NCBI RefSeq assembly: GCF_000787575.1
Contig: NW_012236526.1
Span: 62,001-126,000 of the forward strand
Reading direction: 5' to 3'
Source of the DNA: Acytostelium subglobosum LB1
Lineage: Eukaryota > Evosea > Eumycetozoa > Acytosteliales > Acytosteliaceae
DNA: 64,000 bases
In this document: piece after piece, positions 59 through 52,903 of the stretch
How positions within the stretch are numbered: the first letter of the stretch is position 1
Layout: each line of letters starts with the position of its first letter
Notes under the pieces: generated by a model
What the model was told of the DNA's origin: nothing
What the model saw: only the letters and a program-made list of their open reading frames with translations
Databases searched by the model: none
Translations under genes and position numbers: made by a program

Positions 59-1887
59 TTATTTGTCATTTAAATATAGTAGATGTTGATTAATGGTGTC
101 CAAGGAAATGAATCCACAATTGAACAAGTCCTCACAATGTCTAAAGAATAGATTATCATCAGAGATTCGACGTAGGTTGACATTTACATTCTTTGTAGTC
201 ACCTTTAGACTTGTTATCCATTTGGGCACCTTCTTCATAAATCGCAACAAGTGATTGGGTTGATCAATGTATGAAGACCACATCAATGAGTGTAATGATC
301 TTGGTATGGACTTTGCTTTGAGTTTTCCACTGTACTCATATAGACTCAATTGTTTGAGTGATGAGGGTAGTTGTTCAATATCAATTGTATGTATATAATC
401 ATACAATGTCAATGATGTTATAGAGTCTGGTAACATGGCAGCCCTTATCCTAAAGAATCCAACAGTATCGCACCATATCTCAAGTTTTGTCAATCTAGAT
501 GTTGTTGTTGTTGGTGGAAATCTTTTGATCAATATTGATGAATTGATCACAATTGAAAGGTATTCCAATGAGTTTGGTAAATTGTATAAATCGCACTCAA
601 TATCATTGTTGAAGATAGTGCCAAGCCCAGTGTCATGGAATAAAGAAAGTGAGGAAAGTGATGGAAATGTTTGTGATGTGATCATTGTGATATCCACTAT
701 ATCAGTCAAATTCAACTTGGTCATTTGTGGATATGTATGATTGGAGAAGATACATTGTAGGTCTGCGGCCGACAAATATAATGATCGCAATGTTTGATGA
801 TACAACTCGTGTCTATAGTGGCCAGACAATCTAATGTCTGTTAGACTTGGTGGGAGATTGACCATTGGATGATGGAGATTCACCTCTCCTGGCATATAAT
901 CAAATGGTACGATACCATCAGAGTATGGGAATCGAAGAGATGTGAGTGATTGAGGCAGAATGTCATTATCCAATGATTGATGAAACCTTGGACCAAGCTC
1001 CAATGTCCTTAATGATGATGGTAGTGTGCCTACACTGACCTCAGAGCAAGTATACACTAACCATGTCAATGATGTTGGTAGTGTTCCAGGTGTGAGATGT
1101 TGATTGAATGCTTGGCCCAAGTCTAGATACTCTATTTTAGGTGGAAGGTCACCAGGTAAGATCATTTGATTGAACTCACATCCAAGTTTAAGTGACTTTA
1201 GATTGAGTGGTAGGACTCCAGTGAGCTTGCCATCAAATTGCATGAATGTAATGTTGGTCACAGAGTGAGGATAGACTGTTGATGAGCCTTGTGTATAGGT
1301 CTTGAGTGAGATTGGTTTTGACCTATTGATCAAGTGTTGTTCATTCATTATTGTCCAAAAGTTCTGATCGACAATATCTTTGGGGCAATCAACCAAATGG
1401 ATTGATTCCACTTGTGGCAGTTCAGCAAGTTTGCAGGTCAACTGACTCATTCTTTCAGAGTTGTTCAATATTTCTTTGCCTTTGATTGGATGGACCATTC
1501 GATTGATTGATTGAATGATTGAATGAGATTGTTAGTTGTTGGAATCATACCATTCAATTAAGAGGAGTGAGGATTCTTACCAACAAATATTGTCTTGTCA
1601 TGTTTGTTTCGAAGGAGTGGAGCATTGGAACTGGTATGCATGTATAGTCTATGTGGCTTGTTCATCATATCATTGAAAACAATGTTCTTGTAATGCTTTA
1701 GACTATACTCTGTACTATTAACTCTATGTAATGAGTCAATTGACAATAAGTTCATTGTATTAAAGTTCATATAACTACATGTTGATTGATAGAATCGTTT
1801 GCATACCAATGACAACGTCAATCTATCAACATTATCATCCAAACATGATACTATCTCCTTCAACATTAACATTGATAATGACTCCAT
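59..1887 (-). CDS. F-box-like protein with FNIP repeats
   Basis: Probable substrate adaptor of an SCF-type ubiquitin ligase. Exons 1887-1581 and 1479-59 join in frame (GTAAGA donor, CAAAG acceptor) to give about 575 residues. Residues 1-35 look like an F-box helix pair (LKEIVSCL, then LSLVCKRFYQ). From about residue 190 to 300 there are FNIP-type repeats, seen as FNQ..I.PG.LP..L..L.LG spacing; the rest of the protein keeps weaker LP.SL..L periodicity typical of this leucine-rich family. FNIP repeats are massively expanded in dictyostelids. The two exons lie in separate open frames split by a 101-nt intron, so the second exon alone should not be taken as the gene. Substrate is unknown. The start at 1887 is the first ATG and puts the F-box at the N-terminus. 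The intron carries one copy, with one mismatch, of the recurrent TGGAAYNATTCCA element. Confidence 0.82.
1540..1552 (-). repeat. Intronic TGGAAYNATTCCA element, one mismatch
   Basis: Sense strand reads TGGTATGATTCCA, followed eight bases on by ACTAAC, inside the only intron of the FNIP gene. Confidence 0.55.
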
Positions 1888-2085
1888 CTTTATCTTGTAT
1901 TATTATTATTAATGTTTGAAAATGGACCACAATGATGTTCAATAAAGTGATTAATCATTGTAGTTTTGAGTCAACAAAGAAGAAGAAGGAAGGTAGGAAG
2001 GTAGGAGTGATATATATAATACAATACAATACAATACAATACAATACAATACAATACAATATAATACAATATAATATATACATGA
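1888..2085. promoter_or_regulatory. Divergent promoter region with pentanucleotide repeat
   Basis: 198-bp head-to-head spacer between the FNIP gene (-) and the SAM-SWIM gene (+), so it must hold both promoters. It contains purine-rich GAAGGAAGGTAGGAAGG sequence, then a perfect ACAAT array and a TA-rich stretch just before the right-hand start codon. No recognised factor site was seen. Confidence 0.5.
2021..2060. repeat. (ACAAT)8 microsatellite
   Basis: Eight perfect copies of ACAAT, continuing imperfectly to about 2075. It lies within 65 bp of the start codon of the next gene, so length changes could affect its 5' leader. Confidence 0.95.
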
Positions 2086-3487
2086 ATGAGCACATTCAAT
2101 CAATCAATCAATCAATCAGGCATCAAATCATTAAGATCAATAGAAAGGATACCATTGTCGGTTATAGATTGGATAGACAACATTGCAAAGCTAACACAAT
2201 TCAAGAAATACCTCATAACAAATGGATACGATCAGTTTGAGAGCATTCTGTTGATGGAAGCTGCTGACTTTAATTCTGATTTTCCACAAAGCTACCGACA
2301 GTTCATCCTGAACAAAGTTGAGAAGCTTAAACGATTCGTTCAGGAAAAGAATATCAAGTTGCCGTCTGGGCGTGCAACATGGGAGGAGCCTCGACAATTG
2401 AAGCCGCTCATTGAATTGGACGAAATCAGGAAGTTATGCTCACAAGGTATGTGTCTGTGTCTGCGTGAGCGAGGACCAAGATGACACTGACTGCCTGACA
2501 CGACACATACTACTCCTCATAGATGTATTTGATCGTGCCTCTGATATGTTTGACAGCATTATAGGAGTGGATAGAACAGTTGTCGTCACTGGGAAAATCA
2601 GTGCATCAGGTTCACAGAACACTGCTGGAGAGAAGCCCACATACAATGTTATGCTTAGATTGCATCCCGACGGCACGGTACTCGAGTCCACCTGCGAGTG
2701 TCCACACAAACCTGGCAAACTATTGTGTCAGCATCGCATTGCCATTTTGATCAACTTATCCAACAACAAGCTTAAGAATGATCCAATGAAGGATCAAATA
2801 GACGACCACGGTCTTATGAATAGCACCAGTTGCTGCGACGGCAGCAACAACAACAATAATAACAATGGCAACATGGATGCAAGGGCGGTTGTAGATGAAG
2901 TCGATGTGGAACAGATGACCAAGAAGAGGAAGAAGCATAGGACTAGCACCAGAGTTTCCAAGATCAGAATGGACTCAGACAATGCAGATAAATGGTTCCC
3001 CAATTTCCGCAACGGCGCGTGGTCACTGCTCGTTGCGCTGTACAAAGATGAGATTGCCGCATCGCACTTGCTCTACGCGGCACCCACACGAGCAGAGTTG
3101 ACGGTCAAGGCCAAGGAGTATTATCGACATGCAGTAAAAAACTCCTTGTGGCGTGGCATGGCACAGCTGGTGAAACGTGAAATGGTCATGGTCTCTGGCA
3201 AGGGCCGATTTGAACGCTACAAACTGACACCAAGGGGTCGAGTGATCGCCAAGAAGGTCACCGAACTCAACGACAATAGCAATATGAGCCTAAACGTTGA
3301 TGACGACGACGATGATCAAGATCAACAGAGTGGCAACAACACAATCAATGACATCATGGACTTGGGCAACACATCTAGCGTGAACAATCAACAGCACGAC
3401 GATCCTGATCAAAAAGAAGACGCGGATGATTGGAGTGATAGCGACACCGAGCTAATGGACTTTAATGAAAGTGATGACAACCTTTAA
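2086..3487 (+). CDS. SAM, SWIM zinc finger and MUS81-type winged-helix protein
   Basis: Exons 2086-2446 and 2523-3487 (76-nt intron, GTATGT...CATAG) encode 441 residues. Residues about 25-85 resemble a SAM domain (VIDWIDNIAKLTQFKKYL...NGYDQFESIL...). Near residues 185-205 is a SWIM zinc finger, with CECP followed by CQH and spacing CxC-x8-CxH. After a low-complexity Asn/basic linker, residues about 290-375 (PNFRNGAWSLLVALYK ... TRAELTVKAKEYY ... LVKRE ... FERYKLTPRGRVIAKK) match the winged-helix domain that precedes the nuclease in MUS81. No ERCC4 nuclease motif (GDxxW, ERKxxxD) is present; the C-terminus is an acidic tail instead. Likely nuclear and DNA- or chromatin-associated, by domain content only. 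The start is the first ATG in frame, with an Asn/Gln/Ser leader that an ATG further in could replace. Confidence 0.78.
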
Positions 3488-3512
3488 TGTGACTATAATG
3501 GTGATCTAGATC

Positions 3513-5385
3513 TTATCTTCTCTTTTGGAACATATACTTGAGAGCAATGGACACCTCCATTACTGCCTCATTCGACTCGTCAAGACCAATGGCAAAGAAT
3601 CCGTGTGGAGAGTTGGTGTAGCGTGTGTGGTTGACGTGCACGCCAGATGAGCGCAACTTCTTGACGTAGAGCTCACCCTCGTCACAGAATGGGTCGTGGC
3701 CCGCAGTGATGACGTGGGCCTGGGGCAGATCGGACAGGCCCAGATTGGAGCTGCTGGCCGCTCTGATTGGACTGGCGTATATGTTGTCCACGTCGTCCTG
3801 GTGGCAGTACTTGCCGCTGAACCAACGGAAGAAGCTCATGGGCATGAGGTAGCCCTCCTGGTTCACCACTCGCGAGTAGTACTTTTCCTCGTTACGCTTC
3901 ATGTCCAACACGGGGTAGATGAGCACCTGTCCGCACAGCTTTGGAGTCTGCTTGTCGCGTGCCATCAGTGTGACGGCCGCCGCCAGGTTGCCTCCAACAC
4001 TGTCACCTGCCACAGCGATCCTAGTGGGATCACCATCGAATGACGAGCACTTCTTTACTGCCCAACATGTTGCAGCATAACAATCCAAGGCAGCTGCTGG
4101 GAATTGATGTTCGGGAGCTAATCTATAATCTACGGATACAACTACGCATCCCTATAGTTCCGTTCATTTCGTTTGAGTGTTAGTACTGATGGTAGACGGC
4201 ATTGATTGATTAATTGTCGTTTTCCTTACAGCTTGGTTGGACACCAGACGGCATAGACCATCGACGGATGGTGTTTCGATTGACTTGGTGACGAATCTGA
4301 TTGTGTATGAATGAATGAATGAGTGAGTGATTGGGCAGCCACGACAAGTCCAGTTTTATCATACAACATACCCTCCAGTATGGAACCACATTAGGATGGG
4401 GAAGTTTGTCTTCTTCTCACCTGGCTCCAATGATGGATTGTAGATCCTGACTCTGAATCCAGTGCATCCCTGTACATCAAGATCACCAGCCTCCAACATC
4501 AAGTCCTGAACTCTTGACACTGGTATCGCAGTGGATGGATAGTTCTCCAATGAATCAATGACATTCCTGTCAAAGTCTCCATCCTCATGTGCTCCCATTT
4601 TCCTGTTGTTGTCGTATGTATGATTGATTGAATGATAGATGAGTGAGTGCATGCACAATAAGATCAGATTGAACCTAACAAACAAACACCTACCATAGCA
4701 ACACCTTGTGTAGTGCTGACACGACCTTGGTCTCCTTGCTGACACCACCAATGTTTACGGTGATGGTCTCTTCCTCACGGGCTCGCTCATTGAGTGTTGT
4801 GGTGAAGCACTTTGAGCACACCTTGACTCTGGTAGTATATCCAAACTGTTGAGGCAATGAAACATTCAATGAGCAACATTCTCCACAGAACAAGTGTCCA
4901 CATCTTCTACAATGATGTCCTAAAGATAGATAGATAGTATGTGTCAATCACTCATTCGATCAATCAATCAATCAACTTGATCAGATAGACAGCGCGTACA
5001 TACTCCTGTTGAAGAGAGTAAACTCTGAAGCGCACATCTCACACTTGTTGGATGAGTTGTCTGGTACCCACTCGGGCTTCTTGATTGCTGGAGGTGATGC
5101 TGGATCAGTCGATGTAGTCGATGTTGTAGTGGTGGTAGTGACATCATCTGAACTCTGTTGTGGTTTCTTCTTTCTTGGTTGTTGTGTCTGTTGTGTCTGT
5201 TGTGTCTGTTGTTGTTGTTGTTGTTGTTGTTGTTCACTACTAGTAGTGGAATGTTGTTGTACATCTGAAGAATCATCATTTGATGATGTTGGATATGATA
5301 GGGATGACGTAGTATTGGTGTTTGAGGATTGGAATGGGGAAACAAATTCCTCTTCCTCTGCCGCCAATGATTGATTGAATGACAT
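3513..5385 (-). CDS. FYVE zinc finger fused to HSL-type alpha/beta-hydrolase
   Basis: Five exons (5385-5004, 4919-4694, 4602-4372, 4296-4230, 4151-3513) keep one frame over 515 codons. The N-terminus is Ser/Thr/Gln-rich, with a poly-Q run. About residues 106-175 form a FYVE finger: WVPD, CEMC, and RRHHCRRCG created exactly across the first splice, so binding of PI3P on endosomes is expected. After a 91-nt intron the frame continues into an alpha/beta-hydrolase-3 domain: HTGG oxyanion motif (split by intron 3), [12 protein letters not shown], nucleophile GDSVGG, acid in [10 protein letters not shown], and HGF histidine. The full catalytic set suggests an active esterase or lipase recruited to PI3P membranes. 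The alternative is two genes, with the FYVE reading frame stopping at 4693-4691 and a second start near 4598. Against this, the spacer is only about 90 bp, has splice signals at both ends and preserves frame. Confidence 0.75.
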
Positions 5386-6271
5386 TGTATTTAGTTTCTA
5401 TCTATCTATTTACAACATAAACTTTAAACTAAACAAATATATATATATATATATACTAGAGATAAAGAGATAATGAATGAATGAATGTCTATTGTTGAGT
5501 TTGATTGATGTGAACACACACATTCACACACTCACACACACACATAACACTCATTTCACCAGTTCATACACGACTATTTAATTTTAATTAAAATTGGTTT
5601 GGAAGATTCTTGTTGAATGTCATTCTGATCAGGCAAAGATTGTTAGCTGTCTGACATGTTTGTTTAATTATCTTCAAAAAGTAAGAGATTCTGCAACAAC
5701 AACAATGTTGATATCAATCTTATTGTTGTTTATATATCTGGGTACACTCAATTCAGATAGTAATAAATAGTTCATTGTTACAACCTTTTATGTTAGATAT
5801 ATTAACTATATAATAAGTAGTATCTACCATTTTATTGATTGAATGAATGGATTTGACATCCACCCATCCAAAATCAATGACATTGTGGCACAAGGACACC
5901 ACCATTGTGTCAGTCATTATGTGAAGTTGTTTATTCAAAACTAAATTAATTAATGTGAGATAATCTTTGTTCATTCATTCATTCATTAAAACATCGTTCA
6001 ATCAATTACAAACAATAAAACAAACAGACAGACATACATACAGACACACACAAGACAGGAAACATACAGAAATACATACATACATATAAACAAAACACAG
6101 AACAGAGAACAGAGAACAGACATATTGTACTATATTACAAAGGAAAAAGGAGAAATAGATATTTGTTGTATTATTAAATATATATATTATTTATATCTAC
6201 CTAGTTGACAGCATCAATATCATCACTATCAACATCAACAACGACATCAACAACTACAAACAAACATAATA
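5386..6271. other. Intergenic region between divergent genes
   Basis: 886 bp holding the promoters of the FYVE-hydrolase (-) and ArfGAP (+) genes. It contains a TA dinucleotide run near 5440-5456, CA/CT-rich microsatellite sequence near 5515-5555 and purine-rich ACAGA repeats near 6020-6125. Reading frames here (for example 5753-5974, minus) are AT-rich, have no family resemblance and are not called. Confidence 0.6.
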
Positions 6272-7237
<966 letters not shown>

Positions 7238-11047: not shown

Positions 11048-12845
11048 ATGTCTCTTGACAATAACAACAATGATGATAGTGATGGAGAGTCATCGTCTTC
11101 ATCGTCATCATCCAGCTCATTGATGGAGAATGCTCCATTGATAGTCCCAGCAACAGCTGGCAACCAACTCAGCTCAAAAACCTTAGCAATGAATGCCAAG
11201 AACATCAATCTGATGGTGCTCACAGTGTTCCTCTCCTCGATTGGTTTCACACTGATGATGCCATCCATGTATCCTTACTTGAAAAGTGTAAGGAATCGCG
11301 GATGGACTGGTTGCTGCGCAGGTTGTGGCTATGCGTGTGGCATCGGCTCGGACGGCCGGCCGTCAAACAGACAAAGATGATTGATTGATTAACTAACATA
11401 ACATAACATAACAAAATGAATAAGGAAGCAAAAGCGGATGCTAAATACAACGGTCCACTGGTAGCAATATACAGTTTCGGTCAGTTTGTAGCATCGCCAG
11501 TGTTTGGATATTGGGGAAACAGGAGACCAACTATTGAGGCAATCATCGTGTCCACCTTGGTGGCCATGATTGGAAATGGCATCTACGCCTTCACCAGTGA
11601 GTTTGGCCAGGCTTTCATCCCAATGATCTTCACCGCAAGATTCCTTGTTGGAGTTGGCGCTGGAAACGTTGCCGTCTGTCGTGCATTCGCTTCAGAGAGG
11701 ACCGATGCCAGCAACAAGACCCAGACCATGGGCAAAATGTCTGGCGCACAAGGTGCAGGTTTTGTAATTGGACCAGGTATGTTGATCATCTCTACCCTCG
11801 ACCCTCGACCCTAACCCCTTGCTCTTGCCTTCTTAATCTAGTTATCGGATTTGCATTGAGCAAGATTAACTTCAACATTGGAAGTGTGGTCGTTAGCGAG
11901 TACACTGCGCCAGGTTTTGTCTCGGTGATCCTCGGTTTGGTCAATCTTGTTCTGATCCTCCTCTATTTCAGAGAGACGCCAGTCGTTGCCAAGCCAGCAG
12001 CACCATCATCATTGATCAACAGCCCACTGGAGGAAGAGACTCTGCTCGTCAAGAAGGACGAGCCAAAGGAGTCCTTGCTGCCAGTGTTTGTCTCGATCTA
12101 CTTGTTCGCCGTGGTCATCTCGATTTTTGCCGTGTTCGAGTCCATCCTCACGGTGATGACCAACTATTACTACAAATGGGGCACGAGTCAGAATGGACTG
12201 CTCATGACCTGCTCGGGTATACTCAGTGTCGCCGTGTTTGTTGCCCTTTCCACGCCCATAGTCAAGAAGTTTGAGGATCGCAAGATGGCCCTCTTTGGTT
12301 TTGCCAACCTTTTCGTCGCCCTCCTCTTCCTGGCCTCCTACGACAATGGACCCTTCCATTGGGAGAAGGGNTCTACCCATGTGGCAACTCTTTGTTGGTG
12401 CAGGTAATGTCTTAAAGATCGTCAGTCACACTCAATGTCCAATCACTAACTGGAATCATTCCATTCCCCTCCCCCCCTCTAAACAGTGTTCGTCTCGATT
12501 GGATATCCAATCGCATCATCATTGATGTATGCCATCTACTCAAAGATTCTGAACCCATCAAGTCAGGGAACAATGATGGGCTGGCTGACTTCTGGTGGTT
12601 CATTGGCTAGAATGTTCGGACCACTGTGGGCCAACGCCTTGTTTGGCGTTGCCGATGATATCCTGTTCTTTACATCTGCAGGTTTGACTGCCTCTGGTTT
12701 CATTGTCTTGTGTATATTCTACCATAAGCTCGCTCCACGTAAACAGCCCGTCGTTGAGGAGGTCATCATCAACACTGACAACTACAACACCACTCCCATT
12801 GGCGAGACCACCTACGTTGGTTCCATCTCTGTCCGAGACGAATAA
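11048..12845 (+). CDS. Major facilitator transporter, MFSD8/CLN7-like, copy 2
   Basis: Tandem paralogue of the preceding gene, sharing long identical stretches (NIN/MVLTVFLSSIGFTLMMPSMY, YSFGQFVASPVFGYWGNRRP, NVAVCRAFASE) and all three intron positions. Exons 11048-11287, 11425-11776, 11842-12403 and 12487-12845. The chain is one base too long (1,513 nt): beside the single ambiguous base at 12371 the frame slips, and the paralogue shows that GLP.WQLF should be read across this point. Dropping one base there gives 503 residues. I treat this as an assembly error and not a pseudogene, because everything before and after is conserved. The N-terminus has a poly-Ser run and ENAPL, similar to the ERAPL of copy 1. 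Intron 3 contains a TGGAATCATTCCA element. Confidence 0.8.
12371..12371. other. Ambiguous base N at a frame slip
   Basis: The only N in the window. It sits next to an apparent one-base insertion in exon 3 of the second MFSD8-like gene; the paralogue is uninterrupted at the same place. Confidence 0.97.
12451..12463 (+). repeat. Intronic TGGAAYNATTCCA element
   Basis: Perfect TGGAATCATTCCA in intron 3 of MFSD8-like copy 2, preceded directly by CACTAAC. Confidence 0.7.
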
Positions 12846-13038
12846 TTAATCACATATATATTAATTAATAACACAACCCCTCCTTCCATTATCATTATCA
12901 TTATATATCTTTGATTGATTGATTAAGTGAGTGGGATAATTCCAGTGGGGGTTTGGCCTACTTTGAGTCTTTTTGATCAAACACATTCACATCACATTCA
13001 ATCATTCATTTAAACAAAGAAAGAGAGATATATAGAGA

Positions 13039-14094: not shown

Positions 14095-14128
14095 ACAAAG
14101 TTTGGTTATTTGTTCCAAGGCTATCCTT

Positions 14129-16613
14129 TTATTTCCTTCCTTTCCTCTTTCCACCAGTCTGCTGTTGGTCCATTGATTGATTGATTGATTGGGTGAGTGA
14201 TTGATTGGAATAGTTCCAGTGTGAGTGAGTGGATGTTAGTCAAACTGGACTTTGGACCATGTTCCACGTGACTTGGACGTCTTACCTTTGATGGAATGAA
14301 TGATATCTCGAGGTCGCCAGAATCCTTGGTGACGACTGTGGCGTTCTTGAGTGGATTGATTCCTTTCTCCTCCTTGTCCACACGTACTGAGAATGGTGCA
14401 TTCTGCAGCAGTTTGGTGTTCTGTCCCTTCTTGTTTAGTGATGACACTGAATGACCTGCTCTAATCTCATACATGCTAACCTTCTTCTTTGGTCTCTTGG
14501 AGTCCACATCATCATCCTCTCCATCATCATAATCGACATCATTATCATCGCCGCCAATTCCATTTGAAGTTGGATATGCATCATCCTCGCCATCATCAAA
14601 GTCATCATCTTCGTCATCTTGGATAGCTGCAGCAGCTTTGCCGTTGGTTCCACGACCTTTGCCATTGGACACTGGTACATCTTGATCATCATCCTCGTCA
14701 TCAGAGTCCACCTCTTCAAAGTGCTCGGCGATGGCTGAGTCCAATCTTGCAAGCTTGCCACGTGGATTGAGACGCTTGAACTCTTCAGAATCCTCTTTGG
14801 CCTCAAAGTTGGGGTCAATAAACAATTTGGCGAAACGTGGATCGTGCAGTGCGTTGGCGCCAGCCTCCTTCTCCTTCTGTTTCTTCTCCTTGTCGTCCTC
14901 CGAATGTGTAAACTTGATGGCTTGCATTCTGTTGGCCATCTTGGCATTGACCTTGGGTGTCTCCCTCTTAACAGCAGTCTTTGCGGCGATTCTCGAGCCA
15001 GTCTGTTTCTTCATCTCCTGCTCTATCCTATTAGCCCTGTACTCTTGGTATTCGAATGGATTCTGTGCAGCCTTGATCTTGTTATACAACTTGATATGAA
15101 TAAAGAATCCATGCATATATGCTCGCAACAAGTTGGTACCAATCATCTTCTCAATGTCCAGTCTGTAGTGATTGATTGATTGATTGATGATTGATTGAGT
15201 GTGTTAGTGAGTGATGGGAATGATTCCATACGGGTGTCCCACGACTTACTTCTCGACCTCATCTCTTGTAATGAACTTGTAGTTCTCGTAGACTAGTTGC
15301 TTGTCCTCCTCCAACTCTTCGGTGAGGTTGTCGAGGAATGAGGACCACTTGGGTGCTGGTCCAAGCGAGGGCACGTAATAGGATTGTATCTTTTCGGTCT
15401 CGCCTGGCATGATTATCAGGCCGGTGCCATCGATGGACAGCACGTCGTTGATGGGACTCTTGGGCTCGAGCACCATGAACAGCTTGCCCGTGTCCTTGTC
15501 GAATGCCTTAAGGATCTTGGAGTCGGACGACATGAAGCGGGTGACGCCGGCGTACGTGTGGAAGTTGATCGAGTTGATGGGCAGCTGGTATTGGTGATGC
15601 TTGGTCATCACGGGGTTGGCCGCACGCATGTCGTACAGCATCACCACACCATTGGATGTGCCGAGGCCTAGCAGCAGGCCATCGGGGCCAAACTTGCCGG
15701 CGGATATCTCGACGTCATCCTGCTGGATGTTGTAGCCTGGGATGGACGATGCCACATTGAGCGCGGACACCTTTGTCCTCTGTCTTGGGTCCCAGCACTC
15801 GATGGCGCCATTCTCACCGCCAAACATCATCAGCTGATGCACGGGGTTCTGGGCCACGACGTTGACAGCTGGCAAATCGGTGACCAGTGGTGTCATGAAG
15901 CGTCCTTCCTCCAAGTTTAATCTGTAGACCTCGTTGCCGCCTGCGCCAATATACAAGTCGCATGATGGTCTATGATATGTAATGTCTCTTCCCAACTTTG
16001 GAATCCTAGTCTTAAAGTATGTTCCATACTTTGCATGGAACTCTATATATCTATCCTCTCTCAAGAACACTGGCTTTGAATAATCATCAGATAATACCTA
16101 TTTGATCATGAGTGAGAGTGATCGAACCAGTGATTGATTGATTGAATGATTTGTTGTGAAAAGGAATCATTCCAAAAGATTGATTGAGTGATTGTGAGCG
16201 AGAGATTGAGTGAAGGAATCATTCCAAATTATTGATTGATTGGTGGAGTACGAGTCAGTCCGTGAATCAACTTGATCAACTTGATCAACTAAACCTGAGT
16301 GATGGATGCTTACCTCGAATTGAACGATCTGTGAATCTAGTGTCCTGGTGACCTTTGATGAGAGTTGATTCAGCTCAAACACTTTGAGTTGAGGTGGGTA
16401 TATACCGGTGGCCATGAGGTACTGGCCATCGGGAGTGATCTTTACACGACGTGATGAAGTCTCGAATGCAAAGTCTTGTATCAACTCTATTCTCTGTCTA
16501 AACTCCTCATCCTTTCTCAATTGATCACGTTTCTTTTCTGATAACCATTCAGGTAGTGATTTACCTGCTGATACATTATATATCTTTACACCATTCGTTG
16601 TTAAAAGATTCAT
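14129..16613 (-). CDS. nol10: NOL10/Enp2, nucleolar SSU processome WD40 protein
   Basis: Ribosome biogenesis factor of the small-subunit processome. Exons 16613-16314, 16097-15250, 15162-14286 and 14158-14129 give 684 residues, close to human NOL10 (about 690). Family marks are the N-terminal VKIYNVSAGKSLPEWLSEKK, the junction QFE/VLSDDYSKPVFL, DRYIEFHAKYGTYFKTRIPK.GRD, LRAYMHGFFI.I.LYNK, and DPRFAKLFIDPNF...D.EEFKRLNP. The middle is a beta-propeller; the C-terminal part is acidic and basic low complexity (DDEDDDFDD and similar), ending in a very short fourth exon coding TGGKRKGRK, a basic nucleolar-type tail. The start at 16613 fits the conserved N-terminus; an upstream in-frame ATG would only add leader sequence. 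It is transcribed away from KRI1. Introns 1, 2 and 3 all carry the recurrent palindromic element. Confidence 0.9.
14206..14218 (-). repeat. Intronic TGGAAYNATTCCA element
   Basis: Sense strand TGGAACTATTCCA in NOL10 intron 3; its CACTCACA...CAATCAATCACTCA context resembles the copy in the GT14 gene. Confidence 0.7.
15216..15228 (-). repeat. Intronic palindromic element
   Basis: Sense strand TGGAATCATTCCC in NOL10 intron 2, followed by CACTCACTAAC. Confidence 0.65.
16163..16225 (-). repeat. Two intronic palindromic elements
   Basis: Two copies of TGGAATGATTCCT (sense strand), cores at 16163-16173 and 16215-16225, 52 bp apart in the unusually long (216-nt) NOL10 intron 1. Confidence 0.7.
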
Positions 16614-18993: not shown

Positions 18994-19069
18994 ACACATC
19001 CCATCAACTTGTCGATTCCCTACGATATATTGATTGATTGTGATTATTATTATTTAATTATTATGTTAT

Positions 19070-32297: not shown

Positions 32298-32332
<35 letters not shown>

Positions 32333-33420: not shown

Positions 33421-35630
33421 CTAGAAACATTGATGAGACCAGAGTTCCAAAGGGTTGGGCTTGGGATCAATGGGCATCACCCCATCCTTGGGCATGCTGG
33501 GCGTCATCTCCAACATGTATATAATCTTGAATGACTTTAGCTGTGTGCCCTCTTCAGTGTGTCTTCCATACCAGTTCCACTCACGACATAGATATCTTCC
33601 ATAATGTAGTCGCTTGTCTCTGTTGCCCGATCCCTCCAAGTTCATCAGATACTTGCGCCATCGTTGTGTTGGGAATATCTTGGAGACCATCTCTGGCTTC
33701 TCATAGTCGACCTCGCCACCGCCTCGATAAACATCGACCACTGATCCGTTGACCAGTGTGCCTGGCATCACCAACCAGCCATCGTCCTTTGATGGGTAGG
33801 GACTGAACATTGACCAATACTGATCAATCTTGAATACAGGACCAAGCCAACGAACCGACTCTGGTACCGAGTAATGCCATACTGTTGCAAAGTTCCAGTT
33901 AAGTACAAAGATTAATAGCATGAACATACAAATCTCCTTGACATATCTAAAGGTTGATTGATGTTAGTGAGTATGAGTGATTGAGTGGAATAGTTCCATC
34001 CATTCAGTGTGAGATTGGACTTACCCTCTTGAGACTTGTACAGGCTTGGTCGGATAGATCTTGGTAAGGAATGACCAGTTCTGTCCATTGATGAATAGTG
34101 GACGATTGACCAACCATAAATAGAATCGTTTGAACACTCCAAGTGTAATGAATAGTCCAAGTATACGTAGTATAGGTGATAGTTTGATCAACTTGACGAA
34201 TGCATCATAGCCATAGAGTCGCTCCATCGTGTGTGAGCTCTCGTACGCTATCCATGTATCCTTGTTCTTCATCTCGTCATAGATCGAGTCGCTATATTGT
34301 AGTGTTGGTGGTGCATGGTCGTCGTCATGATCCTCGCGCTGTGCCGCCACCAAAGGTGTCGAGTGAATGAGGAACAACGACTTGTACATTGATAGTACGC
34401 GTCGAAGTCCATCGTGATTGTTGTTAAAGTAGAAGATGGCTGTCGTGCGCTCGGGCGTGTAGATATAGTTGAGCACATTGTCCCAAAAGAAGGACGGGAG
34501 GAAGATCAGCGCGGGCCACCGGGGGAATGTACATGAAGAAGCCGAGCTCGAGACACATGCCAAAGCCCATGTGCAGACACCAGAACATGATAACTCCCAG
34601 CGCGCGCAAGGGTCCGTGCACCTTCTTGAATGGTACAAAGAACAGGAGGTAGCCGTACCACTCAAAGTTGATCGTGAGGAATGTGAGCAGCTGTCCAATC
34701 TTGATGTAGGGGCGTAGCAGGACGCCGGTGCGCGTGACAAACTGGTCGAGGTTGAGCGCGTACCACACGGCCGAATACTTCTGAGTTCCACTCGATGCCC
34801 GTCTTGAGGTAGGCCGTGAACAGGTACATGAAGCAGAACTGCGCCATGATGGCGATGGTGCCAAACGACAGGAAGTACTTGCCCTGCGAGTCGGTCGTTG
34901 GGAACGTGGGGTTGGTCGAGATGACGGGCGAGTAGCCCACCGTCTTGGGACTGTTGACGTTGGCCTTCTTGTTGATCAGCTCGACGTTGATGGTCGAGTC
35001 GACCGAGAACTTGGCGCCGAGCGGCAGGAACATCATCCAGAAGAGGATGATGCGGAAGAAGTCGTCGCCACCGTTCAGGACCAATGGGTTGCGAACGTGT
35101 ATCGACAGCATCATCGCCCATGTGATGAATGTGGACAGTGTCGTGCGATATCCAATCGTCATGGAGAATGCCGACAGCAGGTTGATTGTGAAAAGGAATG
35201 CCGTGTAAGTGAATGATGAGTTGAGGAAGTAGAACGACCATTGGAACGCGCTGTTGTCAATGACTACCTGGGTGGGCACTGCGCCGAGGTCGGTGTAGTG
35301 GTCGTGCAGGTATAGTGATCGCACACGTAGGTCGTTCATGATCAGTATGCCCATTGCCACGCGCAACGCGGCCATACTGCGCAGGTCGCAACCCAGCACA
35401 TGAACAAACGTGTCCAGACCAGATGGCTGCTTTGTTGGTGGGAAGTGACCGGATGCCGGCAACACCGGCACAGTCTGTCCACTCTCCATATCGATAAGCG
35501 TGGTCGATCCATCACCCTTATCATCCTCAATCAACAAATCATCCTTTGATGGTTTCCTCTTAATGAACCCATTGACATTGATAATGTTGTTGTTGTTGTT
35601 ACTGTTGATTGTGATATTGTCGTTGATCAT
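33421..35630 (-). CDS. HTTM-domain (vitamin K carboxylase-like) membrane protein
   Basis: Integral membrane protein of the HTTM family, to which gamma-glutamyl carboxylase belongs. Exons 35630-34025 and 33946-33421. After an Asn-rich leader, the HTTM start is DLRSMAALRVAMGILIMNDL, followed by helices such as FLFTINLLSAFSMTIGY, FFRIILFWMMFLPLGA, FLSFGTIAIMAQFCFMYLF, then GVIMFWCLHMGFGMCLEL and a C-terminal globular part beginning YWSMFSPYPSKDDGW, as in other HTTM proteins. The catalytic lysine of true carboxylases was not identified. Frame slips twice by one extra base: near 34779-34784 (between GIEWNS and KYSAVWYALNLDQF) and in the five-G run at 34521-34525 (between FFMYIP and RWPALIFLPSFFWD). 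Both flanks are conserved-looking, so sequence error is likelier than decay. Read across, about 709 residues. Confidence 0.75.
33986..33998 (-). repeat. Intronic TGGAAYNATTCCA element
   Basis: Sense strand TGGAACTATTCCA in the HTTM-gene intron, followed by CTCAATCACTCATACTCACTAAC. Confidence 0.7.
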
Positions 35631-42050: not shown

Positions 42051-43851
42051 ATGCGAAAGAGCGCGACGAGGAAACAATGGATGCTGCTGATTGGTGTCGT
42101 CGTGGTGGTGATTGTGTCCTTGACCACGATATACCAGATGCCATCTGGCTACAGGTCTGACGCCAATCTAAAAAAGACACAGCGAATGCTAAAGGAGTAC
42201 GATTGGAAGAAGTACGTCGACACGTACAAGGACGACGACAAGGTCAAGGGCGACGGCATCCATCCCAACAAGAAGGAGCACAGGAAGCCCGCCTCAAAGC
42301 CCGTGCAGAGACAACGCGCGGATCTCAACAAGAAGCACCAGGTGTCGAGCGATAGCGCATCAGGAATGGCAAACAGCACAGTCAAGCTGCTGTCGACCAA
42401 TGCGTTGGAGTGCAAGCATGGTGGCATCACCCTGGACGGCGCATGCGTCTGCTCATACCCATTCGCCGGCCCGCTGTGCGAAACGGTGCAGGACCAGGAT
42501 GGATGTCTGGTGCCTGGCAAGTTCAGCTCAAAGAATGGATTTATGTATGATGTCGAGCCCGATGCTGTCCCGCCCAAGTGCGCGATGCCGCATCCCGTGC
42601 ATTGCTGCTGGGCCAAACATAGACGAACCAATGGCACCATCTTTGGCAACGGCAACGAGGACACGCACCAGGCCGTCAGCAGGATGCTCAATCAGTATGG
42701 CCCGTGGGATGAGAACGACAAGCTGATGATGGACTACTACTTTGCATATGGTGAGGACTCTAGACTGCGAAATAGGTACTCGCCCATCACCTACACGCTC
42801 AAGACCGAGCGACCCAACCTTGGTTTCTTCCTGATGTTCCATCATGTCGACCTGCAAGCGATCGACACGATAATGACCAACATCTATCGTGCCAAACATT
42901 ATTACGCGATACATGTCGATAGGCATGTCAACGATGAGTCTCTGGATCAGCTGAAGGGATTGATCAGGGAGAAGTACAACGACAACAACAACGTGGTCAT
43001 ATTGGAGAAGCGATTCCTCGGAACTTGGGGCGCCATATCCCTGGTCTACGCCGAGTTGGCCGGCTACGCCACGCTGGTGGACATGATAAAGAAACGAGAG
43101 AAAGACACTGGCAAGAAGGATCAGTCATGGAGTCACGTCATCAATCTCAGTCTCAATGATTTCCCCACCAAGCCTATCATCGACCTGGAACGATTCCTTG
43201 GCTTCAACACAGAACGCAACTTCATCGATCAAGATATACCAAAGAGGGAGGATCGTATAACGGTATGTTCCCGATGTAGCTGGACTACAAGTCTCTCTGT
43301 CCACTGTCTAACTAACTTAACTTAACGCGCACGTATGTGGATACAGAGCAACTGGGTCGAGTGTGGACGACAGATGTTCACGTTGTCGTATGATACACAA
43401 GATATATGTGGAAACAATGAGAACCTGTACAAGTCAATCGATCGAACCAAGTACACTGATGGTTCACAGTGGCACTTTATCAATCTACATCTCGCCACTC
43501 ATCTTATTTCCAATATGAAGTCAATTGAACGATTGTTCTCGATGAAGTACACCCTTGTGCCAGATGAGACCTACTTCCAGCTGGCATACTCAGAGTCCAA
43601 CCTGGAAGATCCATGGGATTGTATGTTTCCATCACTCAATCATTCACTGGAACTATTCCACTCAATCACTAACCATTCAATGAATAGCCTATAACTACAG
43701 GTACATTCCATGGGCAAACCCAAGACTGGAGGTGGGCATCAAGGACTTGGACTTCCCCTATGTTACATACTTTGCAAGGAAGGTGTACACTCAAGAGACA
43801 AGAGATGCCATCACAGAGAGATATATCAACTTCAAGAAGACTTTGAAATGA
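42051..43851 (+). CDS. GT14 core-2/I-branching-type glycosyltransferase
   Basis: Golgi type II membrane glycosyltransferase. Exons 42051-43262, 43347-43620 and 43688-43851 give 549 residues. A signal anchor lies at about residues 10-30 (WMLLIGVVVVVIVSLTTIY), after a basic MRKSATRK. A Lys-rich stem follows, then a Cys-rich EGF-like turn (CKHGGITLDGACVCSYPFAGPLCE, about residues 124-147) and more Cys pairs. The GT14 catalytic domain starts near residue 260 (LGFFLMFHHVDLQAIDTIMTNIY, YYAIHVDRH, GTWGAISLVYAE, VINLSLNDFPTK), continues with DGSQWH and VPDETYFQ and ends with WANPRLEVG. The DE dipeptide expected in the active region is present. Acceptor is unknown; xylosyl- and N-acetylglucosaminyltransferases belong here. 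Intron 2 carries a palindromic element. Confidence 0.85.
43648..43660 (+). repeat. Intronic TGGAAYNATTCCA element
   Basis: TGGAACTATTCCA in GT14 intron 2, followed by CTCAATCACTAACC; near-identical to the HTTM-intron copy. Confidence 0.75.
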
Positions 43852-43949
43852 TTGAACACTTGGCCAGTCAATCAATTGATGTCATTCGCTCTTGCTTATA
43901 TATATTACACAATATATTCCAAACTTGATATAGATACTATTACACTACT

Positions 43950-45539: not shown

Positions 45540-47691
45540 TAATATCTATCTATCTATCTTTCATGTTCACACGAATACATCTAGTTCTTGTTGTTTCTTT
45601 GTTCTTTTCGAATTAACTAACCCTCAACCCTTACCCTCGCCCTTGCCCTCGCACTCCCTCTCAACCTACTCAAAATCAATCACCTGATCAGTGAAGAGTA
45701 ACGGAAGTGTGAGCCAGGCCGTTCAATCAATCAATCAAACAATCATGTGAGGATGGCCAGTTGGATTGATGGTCAACCAGTTACATTTATCTAAATGATA
45801 CACACTTACACATAAAAATGATGTTCAAGTAATAGACAAGTTATAACATTTAAATTCAATAATCAATCAGGTGCAGAAGTGTCCTTTCCTGTCAAGTCCT
45901 CTTGTAGTTTATGACAATGTGCCATGATGTCAACACAAACAGCCAAGTTTCCTCCTCATCAATGTATTATTGTAGATGTAAGTGTGTTGTGTGTGTTTGG
46001 GCCAAACCATTGGATCGTTCAAACAATCAAACAAACACAACAACAACCATCATAATCAAACACACACAAATAATAATCAAACACATAAACACACACACAC
46101 ACACTGTGAGTGATCGATCACTCAGCTACATCACACAGATGGGTTGAGTAGTGTGTTTAATACTTATCAAAGGGGTATGGGAGCTCCTATATGTTTAACT
46201 AATATAGTTAGTGTGGTAAGTGTTGTTGTGCATTGTTTGATTGATTGATTGATTGATTGATGCCTCAATCCACCCAATTGTGTAAAGATTGACTTGGTGC
46301 TCTATCAAAGAATAGTGATAGAGAGACAGAGATAGATAGAGAGAAAGAAAAGAGAGAGGATAGATATATTTGTGTGAAAGTGTTTGGAATCATTGCTTTC
46401 GAAGTAATACTACTATCATTACAATCATCATCCATATTATTATTATTATTATTACTTTTTTATAACTTATTATTATATATATTTAATTTATTTATTTTAT
46501 TTCCAGAGATCATTCAAATCCAGTTTCAGGTACCAAACAATCAATCAATCAATCAACCATCAATAAATCCAAGGACCAAGACAAATTCATCTTTATTGCA
46601 TCGGTAAGTGATATCAGTAATGTAATAATAATATATCTTTTCAATCAATCAATCAATCTTAGCAACTTGGATTTTGTTTCAAATATTTAATATGTACAGA
46701 ACTAAAGAAATAGAGACAGTCTGTCTTTTGTCATTGATCCATTCATTCGTCCACGTATTCAAACGTAGAGACATTCATTCACTCTATCAATCACTCACAC
46801 TATCGCTGGAAGGATAGTTAATACATCACCTCAAATATTAATATTTGATATAGTTGTTGTTGTTGTTGTAATATTACGTACCTATGTTGAGACATCTTAT
46901 AATAATGAATGCCCCTTTATAATCATCATCTAGATTGTCATGTCCACCCATCATGGACACCAATATAATTCACTCCCTTTATCACTCACTCACTTATTCA
47001 CTCTGTCACTCACTTACACAATCATATTATCATTATCAAAGATATAAATAGTTTGCCAATCAATCACATCACACACCTCACACATTCACTATCACACACA
47101 CATAAATACATCCATTCATCAGTCAATCACTATTGTGGTGGTGTGTGTCTGTGGTAGTGATCAATTTGTACCACGTCCATTTTAGACGCCATTATAATAC
47201 AACCATCCATCCACTGAATAATAGACTGCAATCATTAGTATTTCCATCAATCCATCCTTCCATCCATCATCAACATCCACAGCATTTTGTTGTTGATGTT
47301 GTTTGTTATAGTGCCCGCCATCATCACCACTCTTAACACCTAATCGACAGAGAACAATCAATCATGTGATCAAGATCAAATCCAACAGTACAAACATATA
47401 CATACATCACATGACCATCTTCCAAACAACTACACCACATCATTCCAATCCACTTTGTTCAATCCATCAATCAATTCATTCATTCAATATTCCACCTCAC
47501 TCACTTCACTCACTTCAAGAATCATCCCATTTGATACCTTCTTACTTACCTTTTTTCCTTCCAGATACAAACTCATTCAGTCATTCAGGCGATTGTCGAT
47601 TCAAACTAGCTAGCTTGCCAGTCAGCCAGCAATAATTACTATTATTAAGAATGGAAACAGATTCATTAATGTATGTTTAGATTATTGATTA
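45540..47691. other. 2.1-kb gene-poor region
   Basis: Longest gene-free stretch of the window, between the 5' end of the F-box/LRR gene and the BTB gene. It holds AATCAATC and ACACAC tracts, TATTATTATT runs near 46440, a CA/TC-rich part from 46950 to 47540 and the last 50 bp up to the BTB start. Several CAG/GTAAGT-like sites (for example near 46505-46605) could be 5'-UTR introns of the BTB gene. No RNA gene could be recognised. Confidence 0.5.
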
Positions 47692-50363
47692 ATGGATAGA
47701 TTGACTTGGAGAATTATGGTACTAATATTATTATTTATAGGAGGATATCATTCAATGGCTCTAGGAATATCAGCAATAGTAATAATAGTAATAATATCAA
47801 GGGGAAGCAGAGTGGTCCCCTCTCCACATCAAAACCCAAGTATGGCGGTCAAACCTAATGTGTGGCCACGTTGTGTCCCTGCCGCCACACAACTAACTTC
47901 CACCACCCACCGCCTCCCCCTCGCACCTCATCGTCCATCAATCAATCAACCAATTGTTAACAATGCGACCTCTTCATCAACAACTCCTTTGACGACTACT
48001 ACTACTACTACTACTACAACAACTACTACTGCTAATGCAACTGTTACTGCTACTGTTCCAACAACTAATGTGACGACTCTATCAAACATTTTCAATCGCT
48101 CGATCAATAACCAAACTCGTACAACAACGAATATGACTATGACTACACCAACTACCGCGACTACCACTACCAATAATGCGATGACGACTATGACTTCGAC
48201 TAAAACTTCCAAACCACCACCTTTGTTGCCAACACCTTGGACCAAATCGACGAATAACTCGACGACGACGACCACGACATCGACAACTAAACGAAAACCT
48301 TCATCTTCGATAGAACTGGCAGATATTCAACTAAGTCGATCGCCCATCACATTTAGCTCGGGACCAGAGGACAATGGCTCAACGGACGAGGATATATTCA
48401 AGCTTTCAAAGGACCTGACCAACACGTTTGGCGTTCTGCACGGCGATGGCGATACGCCACCTCCCTTTAGCGACGTGATCTTCCGTGTGAAGGACCGTCG
48501 CTTCTTTGCCAGCAAGATCATGCTGGTGTCGCGAAGCGAGTACTTCAAGGCGATGTTCACGCACAGCATGAAGGAGTCCACGGTCAAAGAGGTGACGCTA
48601 GAGGGCGTCGAGCCAGACGTCTTCTATGTGGTGCTGCGCTACATCTGTATCGGCATCCTCGACCTCGACTTTGACATTCGCATCATTGGCTCCATCTACA
48701 ACTACTGCGACCTGCTCGGTCTGATGCGTGGCAAAGAGCTGGCGCTCGGCATCATGACGCGCTGCGCCATCTCCTACATGCAGGCACCGGACGTTGAGAA
48801 CGCTCTGCTGCTCTGGGACGCAGCCAACGCCATCATGATCCCAGTCGAGTCCATCCATCCACAGATGCGCGCCTTCATCATACAGTACGCCGCCATATTC
48901 ATGTACAGCGACATCTTCCCGTCAATCAGCGAGAAGACAGTGTGCGACATGCTGCGAAACGACGGTCTGCGCATGGAGGAGCTGGACATCCTCGAGTGCA
49001 TCGTCGACTGGTGTCGCGCCAACAGCACGGACAGCACAGGGGCCCCGCTGCCAAAGGACCCCGCCTCGGGCACGGGCTCGCAGAGCAAGCGAAGCAGCAT
49101 GTACCAGAGACGTGGAGTGCACGATGACAACGAGTCCACGGGCAGCTGTAGCAGTAGTCGCTGTAGCAGTCGTCGAGGATCCATCCACGAGCGGGAGACC
49201 GCCGGTGATCCCAACAGGACCGACTCACACAACGACACCGATGGCTCATACTCTGGCTCTGACCTAGAAGACGAGAGCGACTATGATGACGACTTCACAG
49301 ACGATGATGACAAGGAGGACAGTGCCAATGATGACTATTTCTACTCTACTGAGCCGTATGTATTAATTATTTGATTGATTGATTGCGAGAGTCGCGAAAC
49401 ATAAAGTGACGCGCGCGACTAACTCGGACCAACCAACATTAGTGAGAGCCAGGAAGAGGAGTTGGACGAATCAATCGATCGCAACCTGCTGAACAACCTG
49501 TTGCCATTGATTCGTTGGGAGAACATGAACATTGGAGAGGCCTTTGAGAGATTGGACTGTCTCAAGATCATACCAGAGAAAGAAATAACCAATTTACTTA
49601 GAGTATGTATAGCATCTATAATGTTTGATGGTCTCCGATCACTCTCTAACCTCTCATCTAACCATTTGTAAACAGGGCATTATTAGAGCAAACAGAGGAG
49701 AACCATTCCAATTCCTTGGATATCATTACAGACGACCACGCAACACAAGGAAGCGTACCTACCCTCTTGAATTCCTGTTGGGCATCAGTAAGTTCATTAA
49801 TTCATTCATTCACTTAATCAATCAATCTAACTCATTCATACTTTCAACTAGGCCAACCATTCAACTCACCTCAGAGCAATGAGCTGATGCCACTCAATCC
49901 AATATGCCAAGAGTTTGGACAGACATCTTGCCAATTCCTCTATCGCATCAAGAAGAATATCAAGTTGCCTTGCAACTTGGAAAGGTATGTTCTGGCTCTC
50001 CTTCCAGGTTGAAGGACTCCATCACTCACCATCTCATTCCATCCACACGCATACAGGTTTACATTTAAAGACAGGGACTTCTTTGTCCAGCTGAAAGAGA
50101 GGGAGAAGGGACAGTTGGCAGTGTACCTTGCCTTTGGCCAGAAGTTGACAAAGCCACTGGCGGTCGGTGTGTCTGCCACGATCATTGGATTCCGTTTCCA
50201 GGACAACATAGAGTTCACCTACAAGAAGATGTTTGATGAGGGCTTCGACAGTGCATGGGGCTGGCCACGTTTCATCAGTCTAGAGGCGCTACAGAAGGAC
50301 AAGTACACACACTATGGCGATAGTTTCGTACTGCTACTCGATCTCACCAGTCAGTGGGGTTGA
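47692..50363 (+). CDS. BTB-BACK protein with MATH-like C-terminal domain
   Basis: Possible Cullin-3 adaptor. Exons 47692-49355, 49443-49602, 49676-49787, 49852-49984 and 50057-50363 give 791 residues with this start. A Thr-rich low-complexity region leads to a BTB domain (SDVIFRVKDRRFFASKIMLVSRSEYFKAMF, about residues 262-365), then BACK-like helices (LLWDAANAIM..., DILECIVDWCRA). An acidic linker follows, and a C-terminal domain that looks MATH-like: SQPFNSPQSNE..., FRFQDNIEFTYKK, GWPRFISLEALQK, YTHYGDSFVLLLDL. The N-terminus is uncertain. A more likely start is ATG 47651, with a 41-64-nt intron using GTATGT and TTATAG; that frame reads Asn/Ser-rich for 35 codons, then disagrees with the Thr-rich frame. 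The hydrophobic MDRLTWRIMVLILLF... leader of the present start is therefore suspect. Confidence 0.78.
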
Positions 50364-51097
50364 TCAATCAATCGATCCATCATTGTCATAGCCATCACCT
50401 ACCTGTATTCATCCATTCATTGTATCCATCTCCAACTCCAACATCCCATCACATCAACTACACTATACCACTACCTTACCATACTACATCAACAGACGAG
50501 TCAAGACATAACCTTTCTTCGTACATGTTGAGCCAACAATGCAACACTCACAAACATAATAAACCTTTCAATCATTCATTCATTCATTCGTTTGCACTGT
50601 CTACTAGTTGTGGTCCGTGTCCCGACGTCGACAACATCCCAAACTTGAATGAGAGAGACTCGTGTGTTCCCTACTCCAAAGTTCTGTGAACATCCATCAA
50701 TTCAACCATCCAACCTCAAGGTGATGGGCCATAAAACACCAGATTGATGGCACTTGTCCATGACTAGTTCCCTCGAACTTTCCAATCTCGGGCACTTCGG
50801 GCATGTTTCAGAGGGGTGAGCGAAACTATTTTGACAGTTTTGATCAGGGCTCTTAGGTGCAAAACTGATCATAATACGAGTGGGGTTCGTTTCGGGCAAC
50901 CGATGCATCAATCTGTGGGCCATGATAAGGTGGCAAACTACTTGTTGCTGTACTTACTTTTGCATCACAATCCATTCAATCAATCAATCAAACAAACAAT
51001 CGTTCATTCATTCAAATCAATCCCATCCAATCACATCACTAAATTATCTCTATCCATCAAACAAATAATCAATCAATCAACTACTTATATTTTATAA
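50364..51097. other. Intergenic region with inverted repeats
   Basis: 734 bp. A part of higher GC (50720-50935) contains CAGATTGATG (about 50741-50750) and its complement CATCAATCTG (about 50906-50915), each near a GGCCAT, plus an inner TGATCAG/CTGATCA hairpin. The rest is AT-rich leader of the MFS gene. No protein gene. Confidence 0.45.
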
Positions 51098-52903
51098 ATG
51101 GACCCTTATAACAACGACCAACAAGTCGTTGGTTATGGATCGATCAATAATGACCGTGGTGGACATGGTCCAAACGTATCGATCAATGATGATGACACTG
51201 GCGCAGATGAGAAGACACAATTGATCATCAAGGATGACGTGCAACAACAACAACAGTCCGAGCCAGACAGACCCATTCACATGATCAGTATGATCAGTAT
51301 AATGGCGGTGGGATTCATCGCCAACATTGAGTACGGCATTGTGATGCCATCGATCAATGGCTTCATCGAGTCCAAGGACTCGCGATACAATCACATGAAC
51401 ACCACTGGCTCGGACAGCAGCGGCGAAAACACCAGCGACAGCTATCTCGGATGGGCCATCTCTGGCTTCAGTGTCACGCAACTGGTCTTTCTGCCACTCG
51501 TCGGTATATGGGCTGATCGCAGGTCGATCCGCGAAGCCATCAGTGTGTGCATCTTGATTGGAATCATTGGCAACGTGGTGTACGCCACTGCCATCAACCC
51601 TGTCATGATTGTCATGGGCCGTGTCATTGCTGGCATAGGCAGCGCCAACATGGCACTGACAACCAGCTATATCTCGGCCGTATCAAGCAAAGAGCAGCGC
51701 ACCAAATACATGGGCAAGATCAACGGTATCAACGCCATCGGCTTGGTGGCCGGACCCGCGTTCAATCTTCTTCTGGCGCTCTGCAAGTTTGACATCAAGA
51801 TTGGCAAGATGGATATCAAGGTCACACCATACAACAGTCCAGGCTACATGCTGGCCTTCCTTCTAACGTGCTGTCTGGTATCGTTCATCTGGTTCAAGGA
51901 GCCCGAGAGAATGAATGTCGAGGAAGACGCCAAGCCCATCATGCCAGTCGCCGGCAGCTCCTACTACAACTACAACAATGCTCCATCACAGCGAGTCATC
52001 ATCCCCACGAGCAGCAACGACATCACCATCCAGACGTCCATCTCGCAGATCACCGCGGCCAACCATCAGCTGTCGTTCAACTACCGCTCGATCAGCAGGT
52101 CGATGCGCTCGGGCCGCCCAGGCACGGCGATGATGTTCAACCAGCCCAAGGAGGACAGCTTCTGGACCAACTTCAAGAAGCTGCTCAACGCGTCGCTGCT
52201 GACGTGCTTCGTCATCAACTTTGTACAGAACCTTGTGTTTGGCGCGCTCGAGACAATGATCACTCCCATCACGCAGTACCAGTACAACTTCACCACGCTG
52301 GACAACTCGATCATGTACTCGGTGGTGTCGACAGAGATCATCGTCTTCATCTTTGCCACAGTGTTTGCCAGTAACTATGGCATCCAGGACAAGTACCTCA
52401 TTCTGTTTGGCCAGGTGTTCCTTGGTGCCGGTCTCATTCAGCTGCTCTTCTTCTTTGGTGTGCCTGCCACTGAATACGTGCCAATGTGGCAGTTCTGTCT
52501 TGCAGTTGGCATCACCACCGTTGGTATCCCAACCCAAAACACCTCCATCTACTCACTCTACTCCAAACTCCTCAACCGCATCTTTGGTGAGGAGGCTCAA
52601 CAAGGCTTCCAATCTGGTTTCATGGTATGTGCCATCACTCAATCACATTCAATCAATCAAAACTGGAATGATTCCATACTAACTACATCCATCCACTTCT
52701 TGATATAGATGCTGATGGGCTCTTTGGCCAGAATCGTTGGACCTCTGTGGGCCTCGTATGGACTGACAATGGCCAACCGATTCCCATTGTTCATTGTACT
52801 GGTGGCTCTATGGGTGTTTGATATTGGTGTCACTCTTATCTTCTTCAAGTCACTAACATTTGTCCATACGCCAGGACAAAAGGCAGTCATTGTTGGTCAT
52901 TAA
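51098..52903 (+). CDS. Major facilitator transporter, MFSD8-like, third copy
   Basis: Transporter related to, but clearly diverged from, the tandem MFSD8-like pair. Exons 51098-52624 and 52709-52903 give 573 residues. Cytosolic N-terminus (about 65 residues) is acidic with DEKTQLI. Helix 1 is MISMISIMAVGFIANIEYGI; then FSVTQLVFLPLVGIWADRRS (MFS loop 2-3 DRRS), ILIGIIGNVVYATA, VMGRVIAGIGSANMALTTSY. A long loop (about residues 265-355, rich in Ser/Arg/Asn) separates the halves. The single 84-nt intron interrupts the last helices, at the place equivalent to the third intron in the pair; the two earlier introns are absent here. Contains the palindromic element. Substrate is not predictable. Confidence 0.85.
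52674..52686 (+). repeat. Intronic TGGAAYNATTCCA element
   Basis: TGGAATGATTCCA in the only intron of the third MFS gene, followed by TACTAAC. Confidence 0.75.

Follow-up and report, generated by a model that had tools for sequence, protein, structure and literature searches.

The window analysed here, a 64,000-nucleotide stretch of the Acytostelium subglobosum LB1 genome (contig NW_012236526.1, positions 62,001 to 126,000), contains several unrelated genes whose introns carry copies of one palindromic element. This 13-mer, TGGAANNNTTCCA, consists of the arms TGGAA and TTCCA separated by a three-base loop of the form YNR. Among the gene identities proposed in a preliminary description of this DNA, Pfam confirms NOL10, two MFS proteins, a Core-2/I-branching (GT14) protein and an FNIP-repeat protein; the HTTM label given to the gene at 33986 found no Pfam match in a search of the first 285 of its 694 predicted residues. 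The FNIP repeats are in keeping with the dictyostelid origin assumed in that description. Five exact copies of the element occur in the window, compared with a mean of 0.14 and a maximum of 1 in 100 dinucleotide shuffles, and the count rises to 14 when up to one mismatch is allowed (3.5 in the dinucleotide shuffles). All five exact copies lie inside introns of our gene models, as do three NOL10 copies with an outer mismatch (Table 1). The recurrence in introns reported earlier therefore stands for the exact copies; the two copies in the first NOL10 intron and the one in the second deviate at the outermost base, and the copy in the third MFS gene is intronic and begins at 52664 rather than 52674. 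The copy on the 5′ side of the FNIP gene does carry one mismatch, at an inner base, and by eye it stands after GGTAAG and before CTAAC, at a place where the gene finder called no intron. The related copy placed outside introns in the preliminary description is indeed found there. A single N at window position 12371 falls within the coding sequence of an MFS gene, near its element-bearing intron.

On a genome-wide scale (30.73 Mb), where the same pattern read backwards served as the control, the element is found in 1,554 copies compared with 41 for the control, an excess of about 38-fold, and the form with the loop CTA occurs at 416 places (199 + 217) compared with 1. For a closer view of gene structure, a small hidden Markov gene finder was trained on the window and 200 kb of the adjoining contig. 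In this joined sequence of 264 kb it predicts 111 introns, 31 in the window and 80 outside it, and a third-order simulation of the same introns provided the null for gapped words. GGAA-N3-TTCC occurs ten times in nine of these introns, where 0.12 introns would be expected, and is the top-ranked gapped intron word among those that are not part of a TCAA-type repeat. Its density is about 12 times higher in introns than in intergenic DNA (10 copies in 10.5 kb versus 8 in 99.4 kb, p ~1e-6). It must be stressed that this excess in the gene models is due to the window itself, which prompted the finding and holds seven of the nine element-bearing introns (7 of its 31 introns versus 2 of the 80 outside). 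Two more copies outside the window, at 82019 and, with an outer mismatch, at 201371, lie by eye in introns absent from the gene finder's predictions.

Unbiased evidence for the intron preference comes from the anchoring of the element to splice signals across the genome. Taking GGTAWGT as the anchor for the 5′ splice site, the element follows 5–35 nucleotides behind it at 202 places, compared with about 17 expected from local word frequency and 2 for the backward control. The branch site was represented by CTAAC within 30 nucleotides. It is found downstream of the element at 354 places, the sum of four loop classes (123 CNA, 38 TNG, 136 TCA and 57 TGA) in which a few sites are counted twice since CTAAC repeats, and upstream at 109 places; for each of these two sets, all loops included, 53 would be expected from the local and 72 from the intergenic frequency of CTAAC. 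The earlier observation that an ACTAAC-like branch site stands within about 35 bases of several copies is in this way extended to the genome.

Table 1. Copies of the element and related forms in the window
Feature	Position	Strand	Context
One-mismatch (inner) variant, sense TGGTATGATTCCA	1540..1552	-	likely intron by eye, 5′ side of FNIP gene
MFS intron around 12451	12404-12486	+	bounds by eye; gene model starts at 12394
Exact element, loop TCA	12451..12463	+	intron of MFS gene; CTAAC directly upstream
One-mismatch variant TGGGATAATTCCA	12932..12944	none	outside introns, about 90 nucleotides beyond stop codon of MFS gene
Exact element, sense loop CTA	14206..14218	-	last NOL10 intron, 14162-14285
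Outer-mismatch element, sense TGGAATCATTCCC	15216..15228	-	NOL10 intron 2, 15163-15249
Outer-mismatch element, sense TGGAATGATTCCT	16162..16174	-	NOL10 intron 1, 16098-16313
Second outer-mismatch copy, sense TGGAATGATTCCT	16214..16226	-	NOL10 intron 1
Exact element, sense loop CTA	33986..33998	-	intron 33947-34024, gene earlier labelled HTTM (label not confirmed)
Exact element, loop CTA	43648..43660	+	intron 43621-43687, Core-2/I-branching (GT14) gene
Exact element, loop TGA	52664..52676	+	intron 52625-52708, MFS gene; CTAAC 2 nucleotides downstream

The number of intronic copies can be estimated in two ways. Five of 15 exact local intronic copies, one of the 15 assigned by eye, stand in range of the GGTAWGT anchor, and the splice-site excess divided by this share leads to about 550 intronic copies; the occurrence of GGTAWGT in 34 of the 111 introns, assuming that 60% of positions are in range, leads to about 1,000. 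Extrapolation from 111 introns per 264 kb puts the genome-wide number of introns at about 12,900, so that by these rough figures roughly 4–8% of introns carry the element. Within the 5–35 nucleotides searched, the element is broadly distributed in its distance to the 5′ splice site (100 places listed). The nine element-bearing introns are longer than the rest (median 91 versus 71.5, p = 0.004), which may simply reflect that longer introns offer more room, and in the same nine introns no significant link was found to splice-site weakness or to the branch-site consensus nor, as judged by inspection, to phase or intron rank.

Some copies are coding, chiefly in FNIP-like repeats, where GGA ATC ATT CC reads by eye as Gly-Ile-Ile-Pro. 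Such coding sites swell both the TCA class and the total of 1,554 to some extent. It could be argued that the word as a whole is a compositional or coding by-product, created by FNIP-type repeats and low-complexity introns, and several local copies do lie by eye in FNIP-like or repeat coding sequence. This explanation does hold for part of the copies counted across the genome; as a general account it is very improbable, and for the intronic copies it is contradicted, because the simulated introns fall far short of the nine observed and because the FNIP repeat explains neither the CTA class nor the places anchored to the splice site.

The spacing between the two arms is nearly exclusive. In the 264 kb, TGGAA-Nk-TTCCA has 17 exact matches at k = 3 and between 0 and 3 at each other k from 0 to 11. 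GGAA-N4-TTCC is present in four copies, one of them intronic, and a spacer-4 variant, TGGAACCCATTCCA, is located at 261748 of the joined sequence, immediately before the branch site of a predicted intron. Tolerance to change depends on the position in the arm. Beside CTAAC, the right outer A is lost at 51 places (backward control 10) and the left outer T at 49 (control 24), and transitions at the third base pair, the sole inner change tested, are seen at only 4 (control 13) and 3 (control 11) places versus 354 for the intact form. The local predicted introns follow the same rule, all three of their one-mismatch copies being changed at the outer base; the copy at 1540, outside the predicted introns, is the inner exception. 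When the loop is read as part of two half-sites, TGGAAT and TGGAAC, 94 splice-site-anchored loops among those listed comprise 47 TT, 46 TC and a single CC combination, for which 6.1 would be expected (p = 0.016). Palindromy does not continue beyond the 13-mer, as the flanks of 33 local non-coding sites have no excess complementarity past the outer pair. The sites also cluster: among the first 50 of the 1,554 sites, 7 of 41 gaps between neighbours on the same contig measure 28–102 bp, compared with 0.2 under uniform density. Symmetric half-sites at a fixed spacing, apparent here from the spacing and outer-base-loss counts, are characteristic of a dimeric transcription-factor site.

A single 13-mer spread across many introns might alternatively be a relic, either of introner-like copies that descend from one source or of the excision of a mobile element, and a few near-identical pairs, e.g., L004/C44:258946 and a pair on C35 that is 6.35 kb apart, fit such a history. 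The sequence around the element does not: apart from TCAA-type repeats, the flanks differ both in the local introns and, by eye, in nearly all of the 97 printed places anchored to the splice site, and the position within the intron is variable. Moreover, the outer base varies and the tested inner base does not, a pattern of tolerance that recent copying would not yield, and palindromy stops at the boundary of the 13-mer. We therefore regard a relic as very improbable, and the spread by intron duplication considered in the preliminary description is not borne out, save for those few pairs. Introner elements (PMC3879977, PMC7789003) likewise provide many introns of one genome with a common sequence; unlike them, the introns described here share only 13 bases, with unrelated flanks where these were examined and a variable position. 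By eye, the flanks revealed no likeness beyond the 13-mer and no common ends or target duplications of the kind that introners or transposons leave.

The orientation of the element relative to the transcript bears on whether DNA or RNA is recognised. The base before TTCC had been described as always A on the sense strand. This is the case in the window copies, where TCA and TGA loops are compatible with either strand, which leaves the three exact CTA/TAG copies as the informative ones. Across the genome, 100 of the 202 splice-site-anchored places were listed, 97 of them with printed letters, and of these 97 the base is A in 86 and G in 11. A strict sense orientation is accordingly rejected as a rule and retained as a preference. 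Part of this preference is compositional, the sense strand of introns being 24.4% C versus 15.2% G. Since the swaps CTA/TAG and TCA/TGA both exchange one C for one G, composition predicts equal ratios for the two, and their comparison isolates any orientation of the element itself. The CTAAC-downstream sets (CNA:TNG 123:38 versus TCA:TGA 136:57, p = 0.23) and, among the matches listed, the splice-site-anchored set (CTA:TAG 23:6 versus TCA:TGA 26:14, p = 0.28) are compatible with composition. An excess emerges for elements after the branch site, among the 100 matches listed of 109 (CTA:TAG 30:2 versus TCA:TGA 26:11, p = 0.015), and when this list is pooled with the splice-site-anchored one (53:8 versus 52:25, p = 0.009); pooling all CNA:TNG sets against TCA:TGA gives p = 0.003, with overlaps between the lists not removed. 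The pooled CCA:TGG ratio of 28:3 is not in excess of composition (p = 0.14). Much of the orientation stems from the excess of C over G in introns and from avoidance of AG after the branch site, and a modest true preference may remain.

This remainder is among the reasons to consider that the element acts as RNA, namely as a pre-mRNA hairpin of five base pairs and a YNA triloop, to which an RNA-binding protein would attach and so enhance or delay the splicing of the same intron. The preference for introns, the excess in the stretch from 5′ splice site to branch site, the prevalence of A before TTCC and the pooled orientation above composition are all in line with such a role, and the element by itself forms a fold of −2.3 kcal/mol that is abolished in both single-base variants tested. 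The orientation argument is uneven, however: the excess is not significant in the splice-site-anchored list alone and peaks after the branch site, where a TAG loop would in any case introduce a harmful AG. The hairpin is also absent from the minimum-energy fold of four of the five whole introns tested. Other 4-bp stems closed by three-nucleotide loops occur no more often than in the simulation (49 versus 51.2, standard deviation 7.3), the G-U form shows no excess (4 versus 13 for the backward control), and pairing is not preserved through alternative or G-U pairs. The stem-loop described earlier is thus unsupported as the selected feature by the G-U form, by other stems and by folding. It should be borne in mind that the hairpin is marginal, so that any weakening would unfold the stem, which alone could account for the unseen G-U form. 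Overall, an RNA-bound splicing element ranks next to the reading that we favour and is possible, albeit doubtful. Roquin recognises a triloop hairpin, the constitutive decay element (CDE; PMC5603727). The CDE and the present element have a small stem and a three-base loop in common; the stem and the loop themselves differ, and the two are further set apart by the intronic location of the present element and its lack of an excess of alternative or G-U pairs.

The non-random occurrence of the element, its enrichment in introns of unrelated genes and its proximity to splice signals agree with the preliminary description, and on sequence grounds a bound protein is plausible. We tentatively propose, with a probability of about 0.4, that TGGAA-Y-N-R-TTCCA is recognised, as a site of twofold symmetry, by a putative dimeric, sequence-specific protein that acts from introns via DNA. 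Its half-site would read TGGAAT or, less often, TGGAAC, with the two centres held at one fixed spacing; sites would have accumulated in spliceosomal introns and been retained there. The putative dimer would most likely bind duplex DNA within the gene body, and the intron could act as a platform for enhancer-like or elongation control, much as in intron-mediated enhancement. Recognition as DNA is favoured over RNA because the tolerance is half-site-like and roughly symmetric, covariation is lacking, stems of the same shape are at background level, the G-U form is not in excess and the hairpin is weak.

Several observations weigh against recognition as DNA. If the element were a plain DNA-binding site, promoters should carry it as well, and the intergenic density in the 264 kb is about 12 times below that of introns. 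A symmetric DNA site has no need for an excess of sense orientation over composition (p = 0.009 and 0.003); since this residual orientation speaks somewhat for RNA, it slightly lowers the odds of the proposed dimer site. The symmetry itself is only approximate, in that outer-base loss net of the unequal controls amounts to 41 on the right versus 25 on the left. First introns are not favoured (4 of the 9 element-bearing introns versus 59 of 111 overall, a small sample). Finally, outside the window the gene models alone show no significant intron excess (2 copies in 7.6 kb versus 8 in 78.8 kb, p = 0.22).

Binding sites for kappa-B-like and NFAT-like dimers are palindromes of the type GGAA...TTCC. 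The element resembles them in its inverted GGAA half-sites and in the logic of a dimer, and differs by its spacer of 3 and its intron excess. NF-kB in protists is treated in PMC8677719. The closest functional parallel is provided by the motifs of intron-mediated enhancement, such as TTNGATYTG in Arabidopsis (PMC6760150, PMC8157754). Both are short words over-represented in introns, sometimes in several copies, that could act on expression from the transcribed region; the element differs in being palindromic with a fixed spacing and in not being concentrated in first introns. Genome-wide, the over-representation in introns that defines such motifs is provided by the anchoring to splice and branch sites. 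A search of open-licence literature by the spelling of the element returned, in titles and the openings of abstracts, nothing on this element or on introns, and further searches returned nothing on an element of this kind in dictyostelids.

Regulatory words in introns are for the most part short and degenerate, and they are difficult to define. A dedicated dimeric factor and a near-invariant palindrome in roughly 4–8% of introns would together constitute a genome-wide, intron-based layer of control over transcription or splicing, an idea that we put forward with some reserve. Given the exactness, symmetry and frequency of this word, one probe could suffice to isolate the protein that binds it, and natural introns by the hundred offer a ready set for testing gene control by introns via DNA or RNA.

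Beyond introns, the 3′ ends of genes may be a second location of the element. Three extra-intronic copies (102362, 167234 and 177319 of the joined 264 kb) lie 51–120 nucleotides past a predicted stop codon, the window variant at 12932 belongs to the same group with its distance of about 90, and the L009 copy (1501) lies about 30 nucleotides past one. At around nine of the places listed, on contigs C16, C27, C28, C30, C31, C34, C44, C51 and C52, TGGAATCATTCC is closely followed by CCCATAAACTAAC or a near variant, a recurrent form that is perhaps a repeat or coding family; places in the CTAAC-downstream set where a TCA loop precedes the recurrent CCCATAAACTAAC may likewise be coding. The identical 5′ intron stretches of L004 (C11:21999, on a 30-kb contig) and C44:258946 (on a large contig) reflect either a duplicated gene or redundant assembly. 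A further feature of these introns is a strand-biased TCAA repeat, which may be a second intron-defining signal: TCAATCA occurs 167 times in sense and 22 times in antisense orientation in the 111 introns, compared with about 2 per kb per strand in intergenic DNA, and CACTCACT is found in introns 31 times in sense versus 0 in antisense.

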